Shown piece by piece: positions 4,056 to 54,195 of a stretch of 64,000 bases of DNA (position 1 is its first letter; the number at the start of each line of letters is the position of its first letter). Made by a program: the position numbers and the translations under genes. The notes beneath the pieces are model-generated. The model searched no databases, had not been told where the DNA came from, and was given only the letters and a program-made list of their open reading frames with translations. Source of the DNA: Phycisphaerae bacterium (GTDB lineage Bacteria > Planctomycetota > Phycisphaerae > UBA1845); the NCBI GenBank assembly GCA_029260035.1, contig JAJDEA010000069.1, positions 1 through 64,000 on the forward strand, written 5' to 3'.

Positions 4056-5335
4056 TGTATTCGGGCGTGTGGAGGCCAACGCGAAAGAACAGGGGCAGAT
4101 CGAAGCTCTATAGGGGTAAGTACCGATCGGATTCATCAGAACGCTTTAAGTATGTTTCACTTCGAACGACTGACAAACGGATAGCACGAAAAAAATTAGA
4201 TGCAATCGTATTGAGGGTAGAACGTGAACGTGCAGGATTGTTACCTCCGGACGAATTGCTTCAGGGTGCGCAGTGCACGGTTTTGGAGCACTTGAATAAG
4301 TTTGTTTTGGATTTGCAGGCTCGCCGGTGCGATGACGAATACATTGGGAAAATTAAACAGCGTGTGCGGCGTTTAGCGAAGGAATGCCATTGGTCTCGCG
4401 TGAATGATATTTCTGCTGCCTCGTTTGAGGATTGGCGGAGTAAGCAATCTACGATGGCGCCTCGGACGCAGAATCATTATCTTCAGGCTGTTCGTTGTAT
4501 GTGGGCCTGGCTGGTGTCGCATGGAAAAGCAGCGGGAAAGCCACTATCTAAGGTAAAGCTCGTGAAGACTCGTGGGCTTGAAACGGTAGTTCGGCGGGCT
4601 TTGAGTTTTGGTGAGATGAAGCGGCTTATCGAGGTGGCGGGTGTGCGAAAAGTGGTTTATCTTACGGCGGTGCATACTGGACTTCGACGTGGCGAGCTGA
4701 CTCAACTGTGTTGGAAGGATGTCCGTCTTGACGCTACCCCCCCTTTCCTTCAAGTTCGTGCCTCAACTACGAAAAACGGACAGAAAGCGGATCTTCCCTT
4801 AGTTTCGGAAGTGACTGAGTTATTGACCGATCTCGCACGCAATGGTTGCGAGCAAGGTACTCGCGTATTCCGTGGGATCATGCCGCTTCCGAAGACTGTA
4901 CGAAGTGATTTCGACAAGGCGGGTATTGAGCGTCAGGACAGTAGGGGTTGGCTTGTAGATTTCCACGCCTTGCGGCACACTTTCATCACAAATATGGGGA
5001 TAGCGGGGGTTGATGGCGGACTCCGGCGACAGGCGGCCCGGCATAGTGATCAGCGGTTAACGGATCGAGTATACACGGATGTGTCACAGTTACCTATGGT
5101 GAGAGCGTTCTCTGCTCTTCCGTCATATACTGATGATGGCGCACAAATAGGCGCACAAGAATTGGTCCCGAGTAGGCACAAATTGACGCGTTCTGACCCT
5201 ACTTCAGGTCATGAGAGGAGTCGTAAGTGCTTGTCAAATAAGGCGCAACGGCACACGGTGGCATCAGTTGGCACAAATGGGCATAACGCCCCAAAAACCG
5301 GAGAGGGGGGGATTCGAACCCCCGGTACAGTTTAA
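4055..5335 (+). CDS. int: Tyrosine recombinase (integrase) of the element
   Basis: A 426-residue phage-type integrase. The N-terminal region contains an arm-binding part (about 1-60) and a SAM-like core-binding domain (about 75-160). The catalytic domain has Arg211 in HTGLRRGEL, a likely Lys240, His304-x-x-Arg307 in HALRHTF, His330 and the nucleophile Tyr340 in RVYTD, so it is intact. It integrates the element at the tRNA-Ser by strand exchange in the 29-bp core. The last 13 residues are encoded by the core and tRNA (antisense to the tRNA), and the TAA at 5333-5335 belongs to the tRNA sequence. In the circular form the same frame continues into 30-227, so the integrated gene makes a protein with an altered C-terminus. 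The start is coupled to the preceding gene by TAATG. Confidence 0.93.
   Translation: MYSGVWRPTRKNRGRSKLYRGKYRSDSSERFKYVSLRTTDKRIARKKLDAIVLRVERERAGLLPPDELLQGAQCTVLEHLNKFVLDLQARRCDDEYIGKIKQRVRRLAKECHWSRVNDISAASFEDWRSKQSTMAPRTQNHYLQAVRCMWAWLVSHGKAAGKPLSKVKLVKTRGLETVVRRALSFGEMKRLIEVAGVRKVVYLTAVHTGLRRGELTQLCWKDVRLDATPPFLQVRASTTKNGQKADLPLVSEVTELLTDLARNGCEQGTRVFRGIMPLPKTVRSDFDKAGIERQDSRGWLVDFHALRHTFITNMGIAGVDGGLRRQAARHSDQRLTDRVYTDVSQLPMVRAFSALPSYTDDGAQIGAQELVPSRHKLTRSDPTSGHERSRKCLSNKAQRHTVASVGTNGHNAPKTGEGGIRTPGTV
5136..5160 (+). repeat. 25-bp direct repeat, right copy
   Basis: Identical to 64-88 and in the same reading phase, encoding GAQIGAQ at integrase residues 363-369. It sits 134 bp before the att core. 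Confidence 0.8.
5295..5323. repeat. Right attachment core (attR), 29-bp direct repeat
   Basis: The second copy of the 1-29 sequence. It overlaps both the 3' end of the tRNA-Ser gene (minus strand) and the last codons of the integrase, so one sequence serves as tRNA end, recombination core and coding sequence. Confidence 0.85.
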
Positions 5336-5387
5336 CCCGCACACTGGTTTTCGAAACCAGCTCCTTCAGCCGCTCGGACACCTCTCC
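5299..5387 (-). tRNA. tRNA-Ser(CGA)
   Basis: The 89-nt minus-strand gene has acceptor arms GGAGAGG/CCTCTCC, the anticodon stem CTGGT/ACCAG with loop TTCGAAA (anticodon CGA, codon UCG), a long variable arm typical of class II tRNAs, and the T-loop TTCGAAT. CCA is not encoded. The gene stays intact because the element integrated at its 3' end and restored the sequence. Confidence 0.95.
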
Positions 5388-5449
5388 ATGCTGAAAACCC
5401 GCAACATCGAACCAACGATTGGCTCTGGATTCTGGTAAGCCGTTTACGA

Positions 5450-6210: not shown

Positions 6211-7851
6211 ATGATTTGTAATCTGACCGAAGAAGAACTTTGGAGCGGCATCGATCGCGACGCTCCAGAAATCACCAGCCATTTGGAGTCCTGCTCCACC
6301 TGCCAGGCTCGAGCGGCGGAGTTTCGCGCCAGTATCTCGGCTGTCGGCGAGGCAGCCACCCCGACTATAGCACCACTGCCTGAACGAATCGGCTCCTATC
6401 GCATCCTGCGCAGGCTCGGCGTCGGGGGTATGGGAATCGTCTACGAGGCAGAGCAACAAACACCCAAGCGCCTTGTGGCTATCAAAGTCGTTCGAGGAGG
6501 CCAATATGTAGATGAATATCGCGTGAAGCTGTTTCAGCGTGAAGTGGAGACCCTTGCCAGATTGAGGCATTCCGCGATCGGTGCGATCTATGAGTCAGGA
6601 TGCACAGATGATGGCCAGCATTTTTTCGCCATGGAGTTGGTTCGCGGCGTTCGTCTTAACGAATATGTTCGCGATCAAGAAGTGCCTCGGCAACAACGAC
6701 TCGATCTCTTCCGAAGAATCTGTGACGCCATCACCTACGCACACCAACGTGGGATCATCCACCGCGACCTGAAACCATCGAACATTCTCGTTGACTCTGA
6801 GGGCAACCCGAAGATCCTCGACTTCGGCCTCGCCCGAATCACTGACCCAAACCTCGCCGTCACCACCACCGGCACGGAGTTTGGGAAAATAATGGGAACG
6901 CTGCCGTACATGAGCCCGGAAGAAGCCCGAGGCCAGGTCGATGAAATCGATGTGCGATGCGATGTATACTCTCTTGGCGTCATTTTGTACGAACTGCTCA
7001 CGGACGAGTTACCCTACAAGGTCAGCCGGGCGGCCCTCCATGAAGCCGTCAGGACCATCTGTGAGGAACCGCCCCAAAGGCCTACATCGATCGATCCAAC
7101 ACTACGCGGCGACCTTGAGACCATCGTCCTCAAAGCATTGGAGAAAAAACGCGGGAGAAGATACCAAAGCCCAGCTTCGATCGCAGAAGACGTGAAACGG
7201 TACTCGAACAGCCAGCCGATCCTCGCAAGACGTGCTAGCCTGCTCTATCAGTTTTCGAAATTCGCCCAACGACACCGCCTGGCATTTGCCTTCGTCGGCG
7301 CTTTGGTTTCAATCGCAACACTTGTGGGAGTCTCATATGAACATATGCAGCAGGGAATCAGCGAGAGCACACAGAGGCTTACTGATTTGAAAGATTTAGC
7401 ACTTGCAGCCAAAGCTCATCAGTATGCGCGTGCTATGCACGAAGTCGGTCAGATCAACCAAGAAGTCGGTCAATTCAACCAAGCTGAACGGGAATACCGT
7501 GCGGCATTGGAAAAATATGATCGACTTCGGCCTGACGGAGTACGTACCGGCCAAGTACTTCTAGGACTAAGCGCATTGCTCGTAGAGCGAGGTGAAACCT
7601 CCGATTTTGATGAAGCCCGATTCTTGCTTTTGGATGGTCTCGGAATCTTCGATGCTTTGGGGCTACCCTGCCCGGACGAACTTCGTGCCCCCGTTGAGAA
7701 ATCGCTCAGGGCGTTACAAGCTTTCTATGGTGGCCTGGATGAAGAAGAATCTGAACTGGACATTGAAGAAGTATTGAGTGAGATTACGGATAGCCTGCAA
7801 TTCCTGGAAAAGAGCGAGGGAAGTTCCAGAACGAAAGACAGTCCGCCGTAA
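6211..7851 (+). CDS. Ser/Thr protein kinase with zinc-finger N-terminus
   Basis: A 546-residue membrane kinase. Residues 15-40 contain H24-x3-C28-x2-C31, the signature of zinc-finger anti-sigma factors. A Hanks-type kinase domain follows (about 63-330): glycine loop LGVGGMG (69-75), Lys92, catalytic HRDLKPSN with Asp186, DFG 204-206 and an APE-like SPEEA. A single transmembrane segment is at about 357-374. The C-terminal part (about 395-500) has TPR-like helices around YARAMHEVGQINQEVGQFNQAEREYRAAL, and the end is acidic. The ECF sigma factor gene follows 83 bp downstream, so the kinase probably binds or phosphorylates that sigma factor. Such kinase/ECF pairs are common in planctomycetes. The start has only a distant GAGGTG. 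Confidence 0.9.
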   Translation: MICNLTEEELWSGIDRDAPEITSHLESCSTCQARAAEFRASISAVGEAATPTIAPLPERIGSYRILRRLGVGGMGIVYEAEQQTPKRLVAIKVVRGGQYVDEYRVKLFQREVETLARLRHSAIGAIYESGCTDDGQHFFAMELVRGVRLNEYVRDQEVPRQQRLDLFRRICDAITYAHQRGIIHRDLKPSNILVDSEGNPKILDFGLARITDPNLAVTTTGTEFGKIMGTLPYMSPEEARGQVDEIDVRCDVYSLGVILYELLTDELPYKVSRAALHEAVRTICEEPPQRPTSIDPTLRGDLETIVLKALEKKRGRRYQSPASIAEDVKRYSNSQPILARRASLLYQFSKFAQRHRLAFAFVGALVSIATLVGVSYEHMQQGISESTQRLTDLKDLALAAKAHQYARAMHEVGQINQEVGQFNQAEREYRAALEKYDRLRPDGVRTGQVLLGLSALLVERGETSDFDEARFLLLDGLGIFDALGLPCPDELRAPVEKSLRALQAFYGGLDEEESELDIEEVLSEITDSLQFLEKSEGSSRTKDSPP

Positions 7852-7934
7852 GCGAATGAGAGCACGACCGAAATACTCACGCATTGGGGACATGGCAGTC
7901 CCATTCACGAAGTCAGCGTTCCAAGGAGACCTTG

Positions 7935-8510
7935 TTGCCAAACGCATCATCCAACCCTGCCCACGATAGCACGAACATCACGCGCAGTTTGGTAAACAGT
8001 CTTCGAAAAGGGGAGAAGGACGCCGCCAGGTTGTTTGACTTAACCTATCGCGATGCGCTGGTTCGTTTCTGCTGGGGGTATCTTAAAAGCGTGGAGGAAG
8101 CTGAAGATGCGATCCAGGATATAACCTTCAAGGTACTGACTGCGGATCCGATTCCGGATCGATTTCGGCCCTGGCTGTACAAAGTCGCACGCAATCACTG
8201 TTTGAACCTATTGCGAAATCGGGGTAGGCGCCCGGATCACGGAGTCATGCCCGCCGATTCCGCGATGCGTGCCTCGATAACCGGAAACCTTTCCAGACTC
8301 GTCAAGGACGAAATGAAGGAGCAGGTTTCAGACCTCGTCGAGACGCTTCCATCAGCACAACGCGAGGTTCTCCGCCTTCGCTATGCCGAGGATTTGAGCC
8401 GGGCGGAAATCGCAGAAATTCTCGATACGCCGGAGTCGGTAGTAAAATCGCGCATATTCGAGGGCCTAAGAACATTGCGAAAGTACACGCGAGAGCTTCG
8501 CGAGGATTAG
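7935..8510 (+). CDS. ECF-family RNA polymerase sigma factor
   Basis: A 191-residue group 4 sigma factor. Region 2 contains AEDAIQDITFKVL and the DNA-melting stretch FRPWLYKVARNHCLNLLRNR; region 4 is a helix-turn-helix LPSAQREVLRLRYAEDLSRAEIA (shown here as about residues 135-157) with recognition helix TPESVVKSRIFEGL. The start is best placed at TTG 7935, because AAGGAG at 7923-7928 gives a 6-nt spacing and no ATG is available; the open frame also runs back to a TTG at 7884. It is likely controlled by the zinc-finger kinase encoded immediately upstream. Confidence 0.88.
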   Translation: MPNASSNPAHDSTNITRSLVNSLRKGEKDAARLFDLTYRDALVRFCWGYLKSVEEAEDAIQDITFKVLTADPIPDRFRPWLYKVARNHCLNLLRNRGRRPDHGVMPADSAMRASITGNLSRLVKDEMKEQVSDLVETLPSAQREVLRLRYAEDLSRAEIAEILDTPESVVKSRIFEGLRTLRKYTRELRED

Positions 8511-9232
8511 CTGGGGCGATTCTAGCGCAAACGCACTCGGCTGAAAGACTAGTTCGTCATGATTTAGCGTTCCTGCAAGACCCATGGAATTTCGGTTCGG
8601 GTAGTGACCGTATTACAGGCCGTTTGCCCGCAAGACAAAATCGGCATTGCGCATGCATAGCCTATGAATTATGGGGATTTGCAAACGCGTCTTCGATTTC
8701 GGATTGCATCAAGATAATTCTTGACGAGGCAGCCAATCGATCGGTCCAAGAATCTGCGCTCTGATTGCGTTGAATCATTCGCGCAGCGCGTAAGCGTTCG
8801 ATGCACAAGACGATCTGCGTTGGAATAAGAAAATCGTTGTGCCAGCGTGGAAGCAGTGAGACGGCTATAGCACAACATGGGTCGCGCAACAACAATTATG
8901 ATTTTTTTGATTTTTTTTATCGCAGTTTTTTTCAAGACGTGTCGCCAAGTGCAACGTTTGAACGACGTACACATCGAGTTTTACACACCCAAAAAAGAGC
9001 GTTTCCTTATGTGCTAAGTGCGATTTTCGCACTCACTCATTCGCTGTGATGCAAGAAGACGTAAACCGATGCTACCGAACACGCGAACACTATGGCCCTA
9101 TATTTATGTCGATCATAGCCTCGTTATCTCAAGACCCCCTTCCTGCGCACCGATGAGCCAACACATAGGAAGTTTCCTTTTGTGATTGTAAAGGAACACT
9201 CGGTTCATTTTGGTTTTTTCGGAGAAGTACAA
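8511..9232. other. Long intergenic region without a clear gene
   Basis: About 720 bp with only short, unconvincing frames. It contains T-runs around 8901-8932 and a perfect 7-bp hairpin AGTGCGA/TCGCACT at 9017-9033 without a following T-run. The last 200 bp are the leader and promoter region of the basic protein gene at 9233; a small RNA cannot be excluded. Confidence 0.4.
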
Positions 9233-9643
9233 ATGGTCAAGAAGAAGAACACAAGCACGAAGAAGAGCAGCTCGACGTCATCGTACAAGAACGTTTGCAA
9301 TAGCTTCACCTGCAAAATCGGTTCTTTCCGCACGCTGATGAATCAGACGAAGGGTCCGGCCAAGTTCCCACGCCCAACCGCCACCACGTTGAACACATTC
9401 GCAAACTGGATCAACAAAGGTGCCATCGTCCAGACATGCAGCGCAACGCAGGTCGCAAAGTGGGCGCGTTCGAAGAACAAGAACTTCAACACGACATCAG
9501 CAACCCCGACCACATGCCGTAACGTCCTCAATGCGAAGTTTGGCAAGACCAGCATCAAAGCTATCGCTCGCATGAAGAACGGCTCGTTCATGGTCGCCAC
9601 GTCGCCGACGTGCCGCGCCAAGGGCTTCACCTGCCCTAAGTAA
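9233..9643 (+). CDS. Small basic cysteine-containing protein without acidic residues
   Basis: A 136-residue protein with about 19 Lys and 6 Arg and, by my reading, no Asp or Glu at all, giving a very high pI. It has six cysteines (in CNSFTC, TCS, TCR, TCR and FTC contexts), a Lys/Ser/Thr-rich N-terminus, and many Asn and Thr; there is no signal peptide or membrane segment. Start ATG 9233 has GGAG 8 nt upstream. The codons are strongly C-ending (AAC, ACC, TTC, AAG), which suggests high expression, and a strong terminator follows. I know no family; a nucleic-acid-binding or DNA-compacting role is an inference from charge alone. Confidence 0.75.
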   Translation: MVKKKNTSTKKSSSTSSYKNVCNSFTCKIGSFRTLMNQTKGPAKFPRPTATTLNTFANWINKGAIVQTCSATQVAKWARSKNKNFNTTSATPTTCRNVLNAKFGKTSIKAIARMKNGSFMVATSPTCRAKGFTCPK

Positions 9644-9698
9644 GACGTCCTCACTAACGTCTGCAAGCGCAGACACGAGGAACGCAAACAGAATTCAT

Positions 9699-9729
9699 AA
9701 GGGCGACTCACAAACGTGGGTCGCCCTTT
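9699..9729 (+). terminator. Rho-independent terminator
   Basis: The arms AAGGGCGAC (9699-9707) and GTCGCCCTT (9720-9728) form a 9-bp stem followed by a short T-rich tail. It lies between convergent genes and probably serves both strands. Confidence 0.8.
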
Positions 9730-9759
9730 GCTTATGCCCTACTTGCAAGCCACCTTGCA

Positions 9760-53938: not shown

Positions 53939-54195
53939 ACCTCGTTCGGAAACGGCCCTCCAACTGACCGTACCACAAACATGCACGCCTCACGGACATC
54001 GCTGCGAATCCTCGAAATCGCAAGATTCCTGACAGAATCCCTGTTTGGCGAATCGTACCGAAGCTAAAGCACGCCTATTTTTCCACCGATGAATCCATCG
54101 AGGTCCAATATCGGACCTGGAACGCCCAAGTTGAATGGAGGCATCGCCGTCTTCGTATCCATGCTTGGATGACACCACTTTTCGGAATTGCGGCC

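Follow-up and report, generated by a model that had tools for sequence, protein, structure and literature searches.

An almost acid-free basic protein, near-universal in two families of Phycisphaerae and preceded by a sigma-28-like element, as a candidate nucleoid protein

Here, we describe a family of small basic proteins, almost devoid of acidic residues, that nearly all genomes in two families of a single Phycisphaerae order carry in one copy and that is almost absent elsewhere. Judged from its sequences, the family most likely represents an undescribed DNA- or RNA-coating protein of little-studied planctomycetes. Our preferred reading, to which we give roughly even chances, is that of an abundant, lineage-specific, DNA-coating nucleoid protein of these two families under separate regulation. 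Within this reading, we infer the abundance of the protein, its binding to nucleic acid, its use of DNA rather than RNA, compaction, and regulation by cell state.

The gene that led to the family lies on the plus strand at 9233–9643 (stop codon included) of the window, the entire 64,000-nucleotide stretch of DNA analyzed here. Translation of the open reading frame (ORF), from ATG 9233 to the stop at 9641–9643, confirmed the composition reported in the preliminary description: 136 residues with no Asp or Glu, 25 basic residues (19 Lys and 6 Arg), and six Cys. Given the mean Asp+Glu fraction of 0.111 among the window's ORFs, a protein of 136 residues would lack acids with a probability of ~1e-7. 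The Shine-Dalgarno site reported earlier is also present, as GGAGAAG at 9221–9227 (plus strand). Because this site precedes ATG 9233 and the same kind of site precedes the genes of relatives, we assigned ATG 9233 as the start. The alternative start, GTG 9182, adds 17 residues that are absent from relatives.

A search for homologs in Planctomycetota, suggested by the preliminary description, was productive. Using a profile of a 38-row alignment (A3), relatives were retrieved from 75 of the 114 genomes of the order: 48 of 51 genomes in family f1, 25 of 27 in f4, the sole f7 genome, and one of three in f2. No genome of f3, f5, f6, or f8 among the 114 matched the profile. The gene is single-copy in 74 of the 75 matching genomes, the 75th having an additional fragmentary match. 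With the window protein alone as the query, 47 of 60 genomes, including its own, matched at E ≤0.1 (41 of them at ≤2.2e-4). A class-level draw of 298 genomes gave 43 matches, 42 of which fell in f1 and f4; the other, in family f23, was weak (37 positions, E 0.0025). A phylum-level draw of 392 genomes gave no match except the window's own genome. For both draws, only 9–12 candidates were scored per genome; weak relatives could thus have gone unnoticed. Contigs with related sequence were labeled Phycisphaerae or Planctomycetota. In f2, the gene is confined to one genome (L007, G047:C53), whose copy is 61% identical to that of the window, lies on a 5-kb contig of a bin with 6% contamination, and may reflect contamination or transfer.

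The 38 loci of A3 (25 from f1, including the window, 1 from f7, and 12 from f4) were chosen, mostly for longer contigs, from among the 75 matching genomes, and they form the basis for the analyses of neighborhood, codon bias, Shine-Dalgarno sites, promoter, composition, and phylogeny below. The alignment omits L007, whose start falls outside its contig, the cut locus L039, three loci that tblastn did not match at 0.01 (L043, L044, and L047), and four duplicates (L032 and L034–L036, equal to L002, L011, L012, and L014). In the protein tree, a branch with full support separates the 12 f4 rows from the others, a topology that would fit vertical descent. Models from Pfam, NCBIfam, and PHROGs, together with PDB sequences, returned only noise for the window protein and the 38 members, and no DNA-binding family model was matched in these searches. 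A search for phage or plasmid copies of the gene gave no match, and a phage or plasmid origin was rejected on this basis.

Across the 38 full-length proteins, Asp+Glu counts range from 0 to 5 (three proteins have none) and net charge from +20 to +30. The last 105 residues contain 0–2 acids at all 38 loci, with an overall composition of 10.0% Lys, 6.1% Arg, 0.5% Asp, and 0.5% Glu. This exclusion of acids holds down to 24–28% identity among relatives. The zero count of the window protein is the extreme of a family trait and therefore no quirk. Besides the start Met, G63, G104, I108, K109, and F132 are invariant in all 38 rows, positions K28, R33, K76, K109, K115, and K130 are occupied by Lys or Arg in 34–38 rows, and Asn, Ser, and Thr are frequent across the family. 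The six Cys singled out in the preliminary description proved not to be a conserved signal: counts vary from 0 to 10 per protein, and the best column holds Cys in at most 13 of 38 rows. Metal binding by Cys was rejected, as no conserved Cys pattern emerged. By eye, no signal-peptide-like N-terminus was seen, and the suggested wall-associated role found no support.

The protein is predicted to consist of a tail and a folded domain. Residues 1–31 (9233–9325, plus strand) form a basic, Ser/Thr/Lys-rich N-terminal part, predicted to be disordered and variable in length and sequence among relatives; AlphaFold assigns a pLDDT below 50 to residues 1–12 and predicts helix from residue 14. The last 105 residues (9326–9640, plus strand) constitute the conserved basic domain, delimited by two AlphaFold models, the acid counts, and the invariant residues. 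Mean pLDDT was 78.3 for the model based on seven sequences and 78.6 for the domain alone, and both models have the element order H-E-H-H-E-E (helix, 50–61; strand, 65–69; helices, 71–80 and 92–103; strands, 108–113 and 119–123), which is that of winged-helix domains. The domain is predicted to be mixed alpha/beta, with a winged-helix-like order of elements. No significant fold match was found in PDB with either model or in BFVD with the first model, the best Foldseek E-values being 0.59 (a ribosomal chain, PDB) and 0.27 (BFVD). A few RepE-type initiator chains appeared at E 4 to 9. Neither linker histones nor any other named winged-helix family is prominent among the matches listed, although they may still be present there.

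The chains that do top the Foldseek and VIA-align lists, weakly and at VIA-align Z ≤4.8, are ribosomal uL23 and some RRM-like chains, and they bear on the main rival explanation, namely that the family binds rRNA as a ribosomal or ribosome-associated protein specific to this lineage, made, for example, at a change of cell state. A small, very basic, codon-biased protein that almost every genome of two families carries once would suit such a role, and the weak top matches are mostly uL23 chains. However, none of these matches is significant (Foldseek E 0.59, VIA-align Z 4.8), and the uL23 profile was not matched in Pfam, NCBIfam, or the PDB profile search. The Ser/Thr/Asn-rich composition with a variable tail, the alternative-sigma-like promoter, and the lack of any conserved neighbor or operon over the 38 loci also speak against it. 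Because uL23 chains appear among the weak matches and the protein is so basic, we keep the ribosomal explanation in consideration as an unlikely one.

Codon usage sets the gene apart from its surroundings. Among its two-fold C/T codons, 24 of 28 end in C, the highest bias among the window's 55 ORFs and in agreement with the earlier observation; Arg CGY (6/6), Gly GGY (6/6), Ile ATC (5/5), and Val GTY (6/6) are used exclusively. The C-ending bias exceeds that of every neighbor at 30 of the 38 loci (mean 0.86 versus 0.65). In the same genome, the genes for EF-Tu, L1, L7/L12, NusG, and rpoB lack the two-fold C-ending bias, L7/L12 sharing only its Gly/Val/Ile part, which indicates that the bias is not a simple mark of high expression here. 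The abundant expression previously proposed thus retains the codon bias and the Shine-Dalgarno site in its favor, while the ribosomal and EF-Tu genes weaken the argument; on sequence grounds, we consider high expression likely. The accompanying claim of a strong terminator stood in part. Downstream of the gene, a 13-bp hairpin (9699–9728, plus strand) is a likely transcription terminator and folds strongly (−40.4 kcal/mol for 9640–9745, z −5.75), but it is followed by UGCUUAUG, a poor U-tract, and a pattern scan for terminator consensus did not list it.

Upstream of the gene, we identified a sigma-28/WhiG-like element that is newly described here for the family. In the window, it reads TCAAG-N16-CCGATG (9129–9155, plus strand), with a TCAA-to-CCGAT spacing of 17, and is positioned 77 nt before the start codon. 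The pattern T[CA]AA-N17-CCGAT occurs within 150 nt of the chosen start at 34 of the 38 loci, and the spacing is always 17. The reverse-strand control gave 0 matches and shuffles a mean of 0.13 over the same loci; outside the target gene, spacings of 12 to 22 each gave 3–8 matches, and a spacing of 17 gave 7, with no enrichment. The element resembles the flagellar/WhiG consensus TAAA...GCCGATAA, with a spacing one base longer than in Escherichia coli (TAAAGTTT-n11-GCCGATAA, 16 versus 17 here). No sigma-70 promoter was listed at the gene by the pattern scan. This candidate promoter might be read by FliA (encoded at G000:C78:4026–4691 in the window's genome), by a different factor of group 3, or by one of the ECF type. 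A large TMAAG-N16-CCGATR regulon in the window's own genome was rejected, as the 12 matches (2 in the backward control) lie mostly inside ORFs. Two further occurrences were seen: TAAAG-N16-CCGATG at 54065–54091 of the window, 77 nt ahead of a start codon for a putative methyltransferase, and TAAAG-N16-CCGATA at L127 (G000:C179:18696–18722), 94 nt before a ClpX-like ORF, both genes being named by eye.

Resemblance of the element to the flagellar sigma consensus raises the alternative that the protein belongs to a motility program, being made under sigma-28 and either associated with the flagellum or exported by the flagellar apparatus. FliA scores above the cut-off in 105 of the 114 genomes of the order and flagellin is present in 110, and a Ser/Thr-rich disordered N-terminus would be compatible with such a role. 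Against this alternative, the strict T[CA]AA-N17-CCGAT element was found upstream of flagellin genes at 0 of 69 loci. These 69 loci (68 distinct, L160 and L174 being the same place) were drawn from many matches; a start was recognized at 45, and at the remaining 24 the sequence ahead of the profile match was read instead. Genomes of f5 and f8 encode flagellins without the acid-free protein. Furthermore, in one 98% complete genome (G002, locus L010) flagellin was not matched and FliA did not exceed the cut-off, but the gene and the element are both retained; nearly all relatives have both flagellin and FliA, and this genome has probably lost its flagella. The element-free flagellins and G002 weaken membership in a flagellar regulon, and we regard the motility alternative as very improbable. 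A related element, GAAA-N17-CCGAT, precedes eight flagellin loci, all from f8, the family without the gene (L131–L134, L136, L139, L140, and L145; GAAAGTC...CCCGATA, GAAA-to-CCGAT spacing 17), and is likely a local sigma-28 promoter.

Genomic context offered little guidance. Neighborhoods differ between subclades, and no neighbor or operon is conserved over the 38 loci. A sigma factor and a kinase upstream, which recur at only 8 and 7 of the 38 loci, were rejected as conserved partners. Since neighborhoods vary in this way, they lend no support to a nucleoid role. The lack of a conserved, pathway-indicating neighbor (shared clusters being judged from sequence starts) also counts against the view that the protein binds another polyanion, such as polyphosphate, an acidic polysaccharide, or membrane lipids, or belongs to a granule or storage body. 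Charge alone does not tell the ligand, and we consider this explanation quite improbable. In the window itself, this pair occupies positions 6211–8510: a Ser/Thr kinase that matches TPR comes first, and the gene for the ECF-type sigma factor (7884–8510) directly follows it; the N-terminal HxxxCxxC-like stretch of the kinase resembles, by eye, a zinc anti-sigma motif. A tRNA-Ser (CGA) lies at 5298–5388 on the minus strand, and an Rfam scan gave nothing above threshold. Ribosomal protein L4 was not found in the window's assembly, so the ribosomal operon may be absent from the bin.

In the nucleoid-protein reading that we prefer, the disordered Lys/Arg/Ser/Thr tail and the compact basic domain would together bind the phosphate backbone with no strict sequence specificity. 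The near-total exclusion of acids would leave no surface at odds with dense packing of nucleic acid, as in protamines and linker-histone-like proteins. The conserved acid exclusion, the basic disordered tail, and the lack of a signal-peptide-like N-terminus fit the nucleic-acid-binding, compacting role first proposed and make binding plausible. HU (PF00216) is present in all 114 genomes of the order, with match numbers tending higher in f8 than in f1. Replacement of HU was rejected for this reason, and there is no gap that the acid-free protein must fill; it would act beside HU. The gene would be transcribed alone with the help of an alternative sigma factor, and the level of the protein would therefore probably change with growth phase or cell type. 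A more specific version appears doubtful. In it, the two families would have evolved a linker-histone-like chromatin protein of their own, with a basic tail and an acid-free, winged-helix-like domain, that a sigma-28-type factor turns on for nucleoid condensation in a particular cell type or growth state.

An acid-free protein that is conserved in single copy behind an alternative-sigma-like promoter of its own provides a concrete candidate for DNA packing in Phycisphaerae, and a domain kept almost acid-free by evolution is an unusual natural experiment in protein electrostatics. We know of no cultured member of the gene-bearing families. In the open-licence literature, we found nothing on DNA-packing proteins of Phycisphaerae and no description of the family among reports linking Phycisphaerae or Planctomycetes to nucleoid-associated proteins, histones, or winged helices. 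Nucleoids in a condensed state have been reported for planctomycetes, Gemmata among them (PMC3440768).

Several known systems offer points of comparison. HU/IHF proteins share with the present family the presumed role of a small basic chromosome protein but differ in sequence, and the PF00216 profile matched neither the window protein nor the 38 members. Eukaryotic linker histones H1/H5 combine a basic disordered tail with a small winged-helix domain, and the present family is similar in this layout and in predicted element order; their globular domain gave no Pfam match among the same proteins, no PDB profile match, and no significant fold match. Bacterial histones (Bd0055/HBb) exemplify an abundant, lineage-restricted chromatin protein coexisting with HU (PMC10627809). 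That idea is shared, whereas their three-helix fold contrasts with the mixed alpha/beta domain predicted here, and in a sequence-only comparison no Pfam histone-fold profile matched the window protein or the 38 members. Chlamydiae and Planctomycetes both belong to the PVC superphylum (PMC3444138), and chlamydial hctB encodes Hc2, a small, basic, DNA-condensing protein. hctB is reported to be bound and transcribed by sigma-28, its product being made late in development (PMC12282069). Both Hc2 and the present family are small and basic, with sigma-28 acting at hctB and a sigma-28-like element found here. Hc2 is set apart by its lysine-rich pentamers (PMC2848022), whereas the proteins described here share a conserved domain that is predicted to fold, and Hc1/Hc2 profiles in Pfam and NCBIfam matched neither the window protein nor the 38 members. 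We regard the likeness to hctB as a parallel in kind and not as evidence of kinship. If the linker-histone-like reading is true, the family would represent a functional parallel to chlamydial Hc2, within the same superphylum and built on unrelated sequence.
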